This document shows, piece by piece, positions 26,053-60,708 of a stretch of DNA of 64,000 nucleotides. This DNA is from Pirellulaceae bacterium (GTDB lineage: Bacteria > Planctomycetota > Planctomycetia > Pirellulales > Pirellulaceae). A program made the translations under genes and the position numbers. Positions within the stretch are counted from its first letter, which is position 1. The number at the start of each line of letters is the position of its first letter. The notes beneath the pieces are model-generated. The model was not told the origin of the DNA, did no database searches, and saw only the letters and a program-made list of their open reading frames with translations. The stretch is from assembly GCA_026004775.1 (NCBI GenBank), contig BPJU01000001.1, positions 372,001-436,000 on the forward strand, in the 5' to 3' direction.

Positions 26053-26880
26053 GTGCGGTTACTTGGTAACTTCCTGGTAGTTTTGACGCTGGTGCTCAGT
26101 CTGCTCTTTGCGTCGTTGTCGATTGTGGTATTTGCGACGCATAAGAACTGGCGCGATGAAGCCAAACGACTCAAAGACGAAGTCACCAAACTGGAAAGTG
26201 CGAACAAGCGGTTCCGTGAGGAGATCGAGCAGGCGAAGACGACGCTGGCTCAGGAGCAATTGGCTCGGAAGATGGCGATCGCTTCTTTAGAAACGCAACT
26301 GGTGGCGGCTCGCGATCAATACGCCCAGGCCCAGGCCGAAGCGACTCGACTGGCCGCCGAGGTCGGCACGCTGGTTGAAAAAGGCAAGAACGATTCGGCG
26401 GTGATGGCAGCCGTGACGGCCGAAGTCACCCAACTGCGCTCGCAACTGGTAAACGACCGGGCGGATCGGGATCAGCAGTTTGCCAACGTCGTGAAACTTA
26501 CCGACGACTTGCATTCGCTCCAGGGAGTACGCGACAACTTGTTGAACCGCAACACACAACTTGCCGAACAAAATGCGCGGATGAAGAAGGTGCTGGAAGC
26601 GAATGATCTGTCGGAGTTCGCGGACGTGGCGTCCGTACCTCCGAAACTTGATGGAATCGTGATGGCCGTCGGTACGGACAACCTGGTGGAGATCTCGTTA
26701 GGAAGTGACGACGGTTTGAAAGTGGGACACACGCTGGACGTATATCGTGGAACGACCTATCTGGGCCGCATCGAGGTGGTGCGGACTTTGCCCAGCCGGT
26801 CGGTAGCGAAGATTCTTCCCGAATACCGCAAAGGCCAAATCAGGACGCAGGACCGTGTCGCAACCCGATTCGTTAACTAG
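26053..26880 (+). CDS. Membrane-anchored coiled-coil protein with FlgT_C-like domain
   Basis: 275 residues from a GTG at 26053. One N-terminal membrane helix (LGNFLVVLTLVLSLLFASLSIVVFA) is followed by about 170 residues of coiled coil (RLKDEVTKLESANKRFREEIEQA to NTQLAEQNARMKKVLEAN). A small beta domain ends it (DGIVMAVGTDNLVEISLGSDDGLKVGHTLDVYRG...LGRIEVVRTLPSRSVAKI), which resembles the C-terminal domain of flagellar protein FlgT. The function is unknown; no flagellar gene is nearby. The next small membrane gene starts inside its last codons, so the two are translationally coupled. Confidence 0.82.
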   Translation: MRLLGNFLVVLTLVLSLLFASLSIVVFATHKNWRDEAKRLKDEVTKLESANKRFREEIEQAKTTLAQEQLARKMAIASLETQLVAARDQYAQAQAEATRLAAEVGTLVEKGKNDSAVMAAVTAEVTQLRSQLVNDRADRDQQFANVVKLTDDLHSLQGVRDNLLNRNTQLAEQNARMKKVLEANDLSEFADVASVPPKLDGIVMAVGTDNLVEISLGSDDGLKVGHTLDVYRGTTYLGRIEVVRTLPSRSVAKILPEYRKGQIRTQDRVATRFVN

Positions 26881-27059: not shown

Positions 27060-28490
27060 TTACCGGTTGTCCGGCCGCTGGTTTGGTTGTGACCGGCTTT
27101 GGATGCCGATGACCTCGGGGCCTTCCGTGCCGGGAGCAATCCGCAAGCGCACCGGCCAGCCGGGCTGGAGCTGTCGAAGGTCGGCACGTTGGCCGTCCAG
27201 CATGATCCGCGCATTTTGAGCAACCGGCAGCGACCGCGGACCTCGAGGCGTTAGGACCTCGATCCTCCCCTGTTGCAAATCCACCTTTGTCAGGCGGCCG
27301 GCCAATCCCGCACCCGGCGCACCAGGGGCACCACGTGGCGGCGGCTGATTGGAAGCGGCTGGCGGGGATTCGGTTCGCCGGTTGCGCACGGAGCCACCAT
27401 CCCGGTCCGAGCGGCGATAGACCAGGTATTCCTGGTGAACCGGCTTGCACCAACCCTCTTCATCATTACATGCAAAGTAGTCGACCACTACTCGAAGTGC
27501 CCCATCGCTCCAATCCGCCACTTCCACCAGCAACTCGCGCGGGTCGATGTCCGAGGGCACACTGACCTGAGGGCCCTGCCACTGACCGGGAGTCACGCTC
27601 ATCCCTTCCGGTCCGCTAATCCGTACCCGGATCGGTTCGGCCAGATTGTTCCAATGCACGTGATACAGCGGGTCGCAGTGGAAGCCCAAATAGAGTTTTC
27701 CGTTGCCCCCGTTGAGCAGTGACGGCTCGGCTTCGGCACGCAATTTGACGTAATACGGTTCGCGCGACTCCTGAGGCTCGATCACCAGCGGCACCATGCG
27801 AGCCGGCACGGTGATGCGGGGCACGACACCACGCGGAGCGATAGCCGGCGGCGCGAGTTGCGGAAGGTTCAAGTCTTCCGGTCGCGTCGGGTTCTCGACC
27901 GGCCCGACCAGTTCTTCCAAATCCGCCCGCAACTCGTTCGGCCGGCTCCACTGCCGCTTGCGAACGATGATCCCATCCGGATCGACCACAAATTCCGAAT
28001 TGGGGGCGTCACCAAGAGCGTGTTTCAGAGGATTGTCGATTCCGTCGCAAAGCCAAGGAATCTGCGAGCCCAGCTTCCGTTCGGCCTCTTTGACGTGCAT
28101 CAACCGCTCTTGCAACGTGTAGGGCGTCACATAGCCGTTCGTTTCCGGATGGGCTAATGCCTTGTAGACGTAATAGAACCGCACGCCTCGAGGAGCATAG
28201 TCGCGATACACAGCCTCCAAACTGGAGACATTACGCAAGAAAGGCGGTCACGTCAGACAGCCGAAGACCAACACCGTGTAATGGCCGCGTAACCGGCTTA
28301 GAGAGAACGGCCGCCCTTCGGCGTCGTAAATCGTGATGTCCGGCAGCGGCTCGCCGACAGCCGGAGACCGCCGGTCGAACTCCCCGCCACGAGGTGCTGG
28401 CGCGTTGCTTCCTGGTCGCATCTGGGCCAGCGCCGGCAAACTGCTGGAATACAAGAGGGAAAGGCATATCACCAATGCCACAAGCCGCAT
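27060..28490 (-). CDS. Probable selenoprotein: deiodinase-like redoxin fused to a DsbD-like domain
   Basis: One 476-residue frame from the ATG at 28490, interrupted only by TGA at 28248-28250 (residue 81). Signal peptide: MRLVALVICLSLLYSSSLPALA. The redoxin domain (about 45-200) reads HYTVLVFGCLT-U-PPFLRN, then VRFYYVYKALAHPETNGY and NSEFVVDPDGIIVRKRQW. G-x-x-T-U-P-P-F followed by an EAHP-like motif is the active-site layout of iodothyronine deiodinases and related redoxins, where U or C is the catalytic residue. The frame is identical before and after the TGA, and a SECIS-like hairpin follows, so selenocysteine insertion is favoured over a broken gene. A DsbD-N-like domain (about 230-370) holds the C-x6-C pair CNDEEGWC. 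A final segment (LTKVDLQQGRIEVLTPRG) looks DUF5666-like. Export suggests periplasmic thiol/selenol redox chemistry; the substrate is unknown. Confidence 0.85.
28213..28229 (-). promoter_or_regulatory. Candidate bacterial SECIS hairpin
   Basis: On the coding strand GTCTCCA (28229-28223) pairs with TGGAGGC (28219-28213) in a 7-bp stem with one G-T wobble, around loop GTT. The loop begins 25 nt after the UGA. Known bacterial SECIS rules ask for a small stem whose apical loop lies about 16-37 nt after UGA and has a G in its first two positions; all are met. It lies within the coding sequence, as bacterial SECIS elements do. Confidence 0.65.
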
Positions 28491-60081: not shown

Positions 60082-60708
60082 TCATTCGAAAATAGGGGTA
60101 GGGAAGGCCCATTGGTTTGGGCCTCTCTTCCCTCCGAACCGTACGTGCGGGTCTCCCGCATACGACTCTGCGGTGCGGGGGTGCCTCCGAGAGGGTTGCC
60201 ACAGCTCGCGATGGGCTGTCATCAGGTCAAACAACTCATGCGCGCCAAAGAAGGCATCCGGCCAGCGGTGATGATGCCGTCCTCTGCCTCGTCCCTTGCC
60301 TTTCCTACGCCTGCGTAGTATTGATCGAAGTCGCATACGTACCCACTGATCTATTTCCGGAAAAATCGTCTTCGTGCTGTGTTTGTGGTACTCACACCAG
60401 CCACGTAGCGTCCGGTTCACGTCGGCTAGGATCTCCGTTAAAGGCCGTCCGTCCGTGCGGCGCGTCTTCGGGCGAATCGTGCCGTAGAACTTCCTGAGAC
60501 TCTTCTGCTGCGCAACATCAGATGGTCTAGTGCGTCCAGATAGATGTTCGATAGCAATAGGCTGATGATCGCTCCTTGGGGGGCCCTCTTCCGGGGTGCA
60601 CGTCGGTACGCCTTCCATCACCCCCCGCTCCCGAAACATCTTGATCAGCCCCAGGATTCGCCCGTCGCTGATCTTCCGGCCTACCCGAGCCAAAAATTTT
60701 TCATCAGG
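60082..60708 (-). pseudogene. Group II intron reverse transcriptase/maturase remnant
   Basis: Starting near PDEKFLARVGRKISDGRILGLIKMF, the frame is homologous to the RT palm of LtrA-type proteins up to CTPEEG. Shifting past a C6 run (60578-60583) continues PQGAIISLLLSNIYLDALDH. The YADD catalytic block and about 130 further residues are missing. Sequence resumes at RPLTEILADVNRTLRGWCEYHKHSTKT and MRLRSILRRRRKGKGRGRGRHHHRWPDAFF, the maturase/GIIM domain, in the original frame. The N-terminal RT part is also absent. It cannot encode an active enzyme. Open frame further upstream to 61038 is repeat-derived. Confidence 0.85.
60136..60168 (-). ncRNA. Group II intron domain V
   Basis: On the minus strand GAGTCGTATGCGGGAGACCC leads into GCACGTACGGTTC. 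GAGTCGT pairs with ACGGTTC, then GCGG with the following C-rich arm around a GAGA tetraloop: the size, bulge and tetraloop of domain V. The usual AGC triad reads AGT. It lies at the 3' end of the maturase remnant, as expected, followed by CCTACCCCTATT-type 3' intron sequence. Folding and catalysis are untested. Confidence 0.7.

Follow-up and report, generated by a model that had tools for sequence, protein, structure and literature searches.

A probable selenoprotein with a deiodinase-like redoxin domain encoded by a Pirellulaceae bacterium

The gene and its in-frame TGA

We analysed a stretch of 64,000 nucleotides from a Pirellulaceae bacterium (referred to here as the window), the relevant features of which are collected in Table 1. 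On its minus strand, the frame from 28490 to 27060 reads ATG...GCLT-TGA-PPFLRNVSSLEAVYRDYAP...TAA, and the only stops in this frame are codon 81 (TGA, 28250-28248) and codon 477 (TAA). The peptide around the TGA would be GCLT-U-PPFLRNVSSLE. An AGGAG is present just 5' of the ATG at 28490 (GAAAGGAGCATTTGCG-ATG) and is a plausible ribosome-binding site. The N-terminus of the translated protein is hydrophobic and, judged by eye, probably signal-peptide-like, and a hydrophobic N-terminal stretch was also seen in the translations of many relatives. We consider that the gene almost certainly encodes one selenoprotein in which the TGA is read as selenocysteine (Sec), and the evidence for this reading, drawn from sequence comparisons, is given below.

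The standard list of open reading frames divides the gene into an 80-residue frame (28490-28248) and a 392-residue frame (28238-27060) that starts at TTG, which is exactly the split that an earlier note on this DNA had expected of automated gene callers. An ordinary list of this kind halves the gene and leaves out the catalytic residue, so that members of the family are readily misannotated.

The neighbouring frame at 26053-26880 is convergent with the selenoprotein gene, and this orientation argues against an operon of the two. Relatives of the neighbour also flank the selenoprotein gene in five other loci, namely L021, L057, L025, L064 and L026. Since the gene is identical in L021 and L057, and likewise in L025 and L064, these loci amount to ~3 independent places. 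Elsewhere in the window (60092-60170, minus strand), a group II intron match scored 41 bits, just above the Rfam cut-off of 40.

Table 1. Features at the selenoprotein locus, in window coordinates
Feature	Coordinates	Strand	Remarks
Selenoprotein gene (almost certain)	27060..28490	-	ATG to TAA, 476 residues, Sec = residue 81
TGA, predicted to be read as selenocysteine	28248..28250	-	residue 81 in C78-L-T-U81-P-P-F
Probable signal peptide	28422..28490	-	residues 1-23, by eye
bSECIS upper hairpin	28212..28230	-	offsets 20-38 from the U of UGA; CC...GG closes 5-nt loop AGUUU
Redoxin/deiodinase-like thioredoxin-fold domain	27891..28373	-	residues 40-200
DsbD-alpha-like beta-sandwich domain	27387..27875	-	residues 206-368
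C341-x6-C348 pair	27447..27470	-	invariant in 91/91 family rows; aligned with C-x5-C of E. coli DsbD-alpha
Variable C-terminal beta domain	27096..27308	-	residues 395-465
Convergent neighbour, coiled-coil-like	26053-26880	+	no Pfam family over cut-off

Homologues, selenocysteine machinery and the SECIS hairpin

Matches to the selenoprotein at E <= 1e-10 were found in 85 of 199 genomes of the same bacterial family, and 57 of the 199 carried the Sec form. We examined 98 loci, comprising a subset of the matches from this search and a further 28 loci from titled genome contigs, some of which were identical to those of the 199-genome search. The codon at the site, in 102 frames of these loci, was TGA in 79, TGT in 17, TGC in 5 and GCC in 1. 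Removal of identical DNA left 94 sequences, from which a distant paralogue (the third frame of L105) and both fragments of L076 were set aside, leaving 70 of the Sec type and 21 with Cys. TGA stands at the site in every one of the 70 distinct Sec-type sequences, among them the one from the window, and the 21 others, which are more distant relatives, have TGT or TGC. The comparison of homologues at codon 81 that the earlier note had proposed thus returned TGA or Cys codons, except in the frame-broken contig L076. This contig, from a metagenome-assembled genome (MAG) titled Verrucomicrobiales, has TGC at the site and a frame break just past it, and may be either a Cys form or a product of misassembly.

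The earlier note had also held that a random stop would be unlikely to fall on this one codon. Using the local base composition and treating bases as independent, we obtained p ~6e-6 for 395 open codons past a chance stop, and the sharing of TGA by 70 distinct Sec-type sequences, together with TGT or TGC in 21 relatives, bears out that its position is not due to chance. C78, position 81 (Sec or Cys), H114, C341 and C348 never varied among the 91 aligned distinct proteins. On a quick tree of these 91 rows, a single change divided the Sec and Cys forms (SH-aLRT 99), though the root of this tree is not known and the program warned of long branches.

TGC and TGT are one base away from TGA and Cys homologues exist, and the codon could therefore reflect a nonsense mutation or a sequencing error in what is otherwise a normal redoxin of the Cys type, that is, a pseudogene or a misread TGC/TGT. 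However, independent TGA-bearing homologues occur in other genomes, the frame past the TGA is open and its residues are conserved, Sec machinery is present in the genome, and the bases of the SECIS hairpin covary (see below). The TGA-bearing homologues rule out a pseudogene or error for practical purposes, and we give this reading a negligible probability.

In a phylum-wide sample, only 2 of 294 genomes gave a match at E <= 1e-30, namely the source genome and one genome of another family, which suggests that the gene is concentrated in the family of the source organism. Proteins identical to that of the window were encoded by L021 (genome G060) and L057 (titled Pirellulaceae). Relatives were also seen in MAGs titled Acidobacteria/Acidobacteriota (5), Kiritimatiellia, Phycisphaerales and Verrucomicrobia/Verrucomicrobiales (2) (L051, L052, L053, L058, L074, L060, L071, L073 and L076), and these reflect either transfer between lineages or misbinned contigs. 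At L105 (G057:C146:12538-16155), two tandem copies of the Sec gene are followed by a distantly related frame with TGA at GSFT-U-GNYR, making it probable that three selenoprotein genes lie in a row. Twelve distant matches were retrieved in all, of which 10 could be aligned at the site, five with TGA and five with Cys. L117, L118, L119, L120 and L122 are distant deiodinase-like paralogues from the same bacterial family with an active-site TGA (GGYTUPPF twice, AGYTUPPI, GSCTUPPF and GSYTUPPF). A search of the source genome with PF00837 found no deiodinase paralogue, but as the same search was also blank in every control genome, this result does not demonstrate absence.

We looked for selA, selB, selC and selD in the source genome (6.14 Mb in 30 contigs, 99.9% complete), as the earlier note had suggested, and all four were present. 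The tRNA-Sec (selC) was detected at C5:161603 with 72.6 bits against a gathering score of 47 and was assigned the anticodon TCA by ARAGORN, SelB (C5:196130) and SelD (C2:496883) were over their cut-offs, and SelA (C5:198114) scored 571 bits against a cut-off of 268. SelD forms the C-terminal part of a 750-residue ORF (L013 283-2535, C2:496883) whose N-terminal region appeared, by eye, similar to pyridine-nucleotide oxidoreductases, and this ORF is probably an oxidoreductase-SelD fusion.

Among the 199 genomes of the family, SelA was over cut-off in 50 of the 57 Sec-form genomes, in none of the 20 Cys-only genomes and in 52 of the 122 with neither form (Fisher p = 6e-13 for Sec against Cys-only genomes, uncorrected for ancestry). 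The genomes were classed by hand, and some from the count of internal stops alone, including G090 (Cys) and others for which no locus was retrieved, as well as G004 and G094, which gave split matches. G054 carries both forms and was counted as Sec, and eight genomes with distant matches only were placed under 'neither'. SelA was scored by its cut-off alone because SelA-like matches below the cut-off were so common (193 of 199 genomes at E <= 0.001). Seven Sec genomes had no SelA over cut-off, and in these tRNA-Sec was found in five and SelB in three; G101 (91% complete) and G168 (69% complete) have the Sec form, yet no SelA, SelB or tRNA-Sec at the thresholds used. None of the 20 Cys-only genomes had SelB (E <= 1e-80) or tRNA-Sec (E <= 1e-9).

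An in-frame TGA by itself leaves the inserted residue unspecified, and a residue other than Sec could be introduced by Trp suppression or by a reassigned code. Against this, the site is occupied in the 21 non-Sec homologues by Cys and never by Trp, tRNA-Sec and SelA, SelB and SelD are present, a SECIS element is found at standard spacing, and the Sec form tracks SelA. We therefore attach only a very slight probability to readthrough of this kind, and reassignment of UGA is unlikely in view of the Cys at this position in homologues and of the Sec machinery in the genome.

The codons past the UGA encode a hairpin, which the earlier note had not described. In all 70 Sec genes they contain CC-[A/G]G[U/G]NU-GG, with the loop beginning 24 nt after the UGA, and the loop pattern closed by CC/GG was present in 70/70 Sec genes and 0/21 Cys genes. 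When the same peptides were recoded synonymously in 1000 trials, the loop pattern arose on average in 1.9 of the 70, and never in more than 8. Stem pairs were formed in 423 of 490 cases, as against a mean of 299 and a maximum of 323 on recoding, and the window itself forms 6 of the 7 pairs of the family template. We ranked all 741 pairs of third codon positions around the site by their excess of Watson-Crick pairing, and the two stem pairs (6,12) and (7,11) came out on top; since all such pairs share one tree, this ranking largely controls for ancestry. The third bases of the Val and Glu codons pair in 70/70 genes (C-G 58, T-A 11, T-G 1), and those of codons 6 and 12 covary (C-G 28, T-A 16, G-C 6). 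Two of the seven stem positions frequently lacked a pair, (24,34) in 45/70 and (20,38) in 17/70. The single-sequence fold of the SECIS region of the window was unremarkable when compared with shuffles (z -0.91). The published bSECIS model, as given in the legend to Fig 2 of PMC13188914, has an early G in the loop, a stem of 4-16 bp, a spacing of 16-37 nt and an MFE <= -7.5 kcal/mol. The family agrees with the loop pattern (70/70) and the spacing (24 nt) of this model, and the MFE limit of -7.5 kcal/mol was reached by only 38 of the 70 isolated short hairpins.

The machinery, the TGA and Cys homologues and the SECIS were thus all found, and the earlier proposal of a probable selenoprotein, with an in-frame UGA in a redoxin active site, is strengthened to the point where insertion of Sec at UGA 28250-28248 appears very nearly certain from these comparisons.

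Domain structure and proposed mechanism

The N-terminal domain was over cut-off with two Pfam models, AhpC-TSA (36.7 bits, cut-off 26) and Redoxin (31.1 bits, cut-off 26.6). It did not reach the cut-offs of the deiodinase models, scoring 20.1 bits against 27 with Pfam T4_deiodinase (PF00837) and 56.3 bits against 250 with NCBIfam deiodinase (NF038285). The NCBIfam model deiodinase_rel matched all 27 members of alignment A1 (best E 5.7e-21), and a profile search of the PDB placed DIO3 (4tr3) first (E 3.4e-7), before ResA. The AlphaFold model had a mean pLDDT of 82.7, with residues 114-119 below 50. With this model, the best VIA-align match was mouse DIO2 (9h48; Z 18.4, rmsd 2.7, 156 residues aligned), followed by mouse DIO3 (4tr3; Z 17.4), the latter tied with the next rows, which are thiol-disulfide oxidoreductases at Z 16.6. 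Ranking by Foldseek E-value placed DipZ and ResA on top, and no deiodinase was among the best 50 Foldseek matches listed. Peroxiredoxins were among the structural matches of both programs. The segments TUPPF (TCPPF in solved mutants) and Y-x4-HP are common to the selenoprotein and DIO2/DIO3. The predicted structure is that of a redoxin domain with a thioredoxin fold, for which one of the structural rankings puts mouse deiodinases 2 and 3 nearest. The profile search and one of the two structural rankings bear out 'deiodinase-like', the term of the earlier note, for this domain, which falls short of the Pfam and NCBIfam deiodinase cut-offs. For that last reason, the term should not be taken to mean thyroid-type deiodination, which is not supported for this protein.

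The second domain (residues 206-368) was modelled confidently as a beta-sandwich (pLDDT 90.9). DsbD_N (PF11412) scored 13.2 bits in the window protein and did not reach the Pfam cut-off of 25, and matched 21 of the 27 A1 members at E <= 0.1 (best 2.7e-5). An hhalign comparison with E. coli DsbD-alpha gave E 5.9e-4 at a probability of only 29%, and paired C341 and C348 with the C-x5-C of that protein. By fold, DsbD-alpha and the ScsB N-domain (Z 6.5-7.1) were tied with adaptin and other unrelated Ig-like domains, the best match having Z 8.6. Foldseek found no match to the domain at E 0.001 or better, and a PDB sequence search with it found only chance-level glutaminyl cyclotransferase matches (E ~0.25). 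The resemblance of the C-terminal domain to DsbD-alpha is therefore weak. The tail that follows is instead DUF5666-, CusF- or EF-hand-like in a few relatives. Several relatives (L051-L054, L066, L075 and others) have, by eye, EF-hand-like stretches preceding or following the core, and Pfam detected such stretches in 3 of the 27 A1 members. In L070 (3142-5259, from a MAG titled Fuerstiella), the redoxin frame continues into a PQQ_2 beta-propeller.

We looked for conserved neighbours in 58 sources, made up of 16 kb of the window and L020-L076; several of these are the same region twice, and the short flanks of 1.5-3 kb make this a weak test. Apart from the gene and frames overlapping it, the largest clusters of neighbours covered 7 loci, 6 loci and 6 sources. 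The 7-locus cluster consisted of DUF1549 PSCyt proteins in the three that were annotated, and the 6-locus cluster had one annotated member, a PQQ_2 propeller. The 6-source cluster includes the convergent frame of the window at 26053-26880. DUF1549 (PSCyt2) proteins with DUF1553 or planctomycete cytochrome C domains were seen near the gene in L059, L061 and L034. No conserved neighbour pointing to a substrate was found in these 58 sources and flanks, in which few neighbours were annotated.

The best overall explanation, in which we have considerable confidence, is that of a SECIS-directed Sec protein that would act as an exported CxxU oxidoreductase with a second domain relaying electrons. SelB and tRNA-Sec would read the UGA as Sec under the direction of the hairpin with its loop 24 nt downstream, and the protein would probably be exported. 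The first domain would have a thioredoxin fold of the deiodinase/ResA type and C78-x-x-U81 as its active site, where the selenolate of U81 may attack an oxidised substrate such as a disulfide, sulfenate or peroxide, and Cys78 could then resolve U81 through a selenenylsulfide. DsbD-alpha is an electron donor to periplasmic thioredoxin-fold proteins, and the DsbD-alpha-like domain with C341 and C348 might serve as an electron partner within the same chain, regenerating the CxxU site or handing the electrons on. Of the parts of this scheme, an exported thiol/selenol oxidoreductase is likely, and the intramolecular relay is a tentative assignment with somewhat less than an even chance of being correct.

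The protein could alternatively be a true selenium peroxidase of the AhpC/GPx type, reduced by a separate thioredoxin-like protein, with a second domain that is only structural or binds substrate. AhpC-TSA and Redoxin are the Pfam models over cut-off and peroxiredoxins are among the structural matches, but a Cys pair that is invariant in 91/91 proteins and aligned with the redox pair of DsbD-alpha exceeds what a structural module would need; we judge a peroxidase unlikely, while giving it some weight. A bacterial reductive dehalogenase or deiodinase, in which Sec would act outside the cytoplasm on aromatic compounds carrying iodine or bromine, would be in keeping with DIO2 and DIO3 as the best VIA-align and PDB sequence matches and with the TUPPF and Y-x4-HP segments. 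The deiodinase scores below cut-off do not favour it, no halogen-related neighbour was seen among the few that were annotated, and a redox role was suggested for bacterial relatives by the authors of a 2005 study (PMC1088965). We consider dehalogenation to be quite improbable. A similarly long shot is a self-contained exported selenoenzyme, in which a CxxU domain of deiodinase fold would carry out reductive chemistry on an extracytoplasmic substrate, possibly the dehalogenation of iodo- or bromo-organic compounds, and be recharged by its own DsbD-alpha-like domain; if true, this would be a bacterial counterpart of the animal deiodinases with the electron donor in the same chain.

Comparison with known systems

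Deiodinase-like selenoproteins of bacteria, along with homologues that have Cys, were reported from the Sargasso Sea set in 2005, with a redox role suggested (PMC1088965), and were counted again in the GOS set in 2008 (PMC2398784); the use of Sec in planctomycetes has also been published (PMC4807772). The present protein is like these PF00837-type selenoproteins in its deiodinase-type redoxin, catalytic Sec, Cys homologues and bacterial SECIS. A 2026 review lists deiodinase-like selenoproteins with the motif UxxC (PMC13188914), whereas here the motif is CxxU-PPF and a DsbD-alpha-like domain is present; this contrast is with the listed motif, and the 2005 and 2008 sets may contain relatives of this same gene. 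That review also lists Prx-like and Redoxin families of selenoproteins (PF00578, PF08534; PMC13188914), which correspond to the Pfam models over cut-off here, but their motifs are given as TxxU, UxxC or UxxU. In a literature search on deiodinase-like selenoproteins, planctomycetes and DsbD fusions, we did not find the CxxU and DsbD-like architecture described; this search covered articles outside their supplements, and table S9 of PMC4807772, with selenoprotein candidates of two planctomycetes, could hold an example.

The protein shares its fold (Z 18.4 and 17.4), T-U-P-P-F and Y-x4-HP with the animal iodothyronine deiodinases DIO2 (9h48) and DIO3 (4tr3), but has its Cys at -3 rather than -2, carries extra C-terminal domains, misses the family cut-offs and is probably exported. 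With DsbD-alpha (PF11412), it has in common a beta-sandwich with an aligned Cys pair, C-x6-C here as against C-x5-C, whereas the domain is fused here behind a selenoredoxin, its sequence match is weak and its fold match is tied with other Ig-like domains. ResA-type thiol oxidoreductases share the redoxin fold (PDB matches at Z ~16, among the best by Foldseek), but the present protein differs from them in its Sec-containing CxxU site and its fusion to a DsbD-like domain. The C-terminal domains of M. tuberculosis DipZ (2hyx, 5cyy) were the best Foldseek match of the whole model, over >300 alignment columns, but at an rmsd of ~12 the domain arrangement is not common to the two proteins.

Beyond the earlier note, the analysis adds the SECIS hairpin downstream of the UGA, the CxxU motif with Cys at -3 and the C-terminal DsbD-alpha-like domain with its two invariant Cys. 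The family offers a natural comparison of Sec and Cys forms, with one change on the quick 91-member tree and selA over cut-off in 0/20 Cys-only genomes. Selenoproteins of the deiodinase-like type have been on record in bacteria since 2005, and what is new here is the CxxU motif together with the DsbD-like fusion, which adds a domain architecture to the bacterial relatives of deiodinases.
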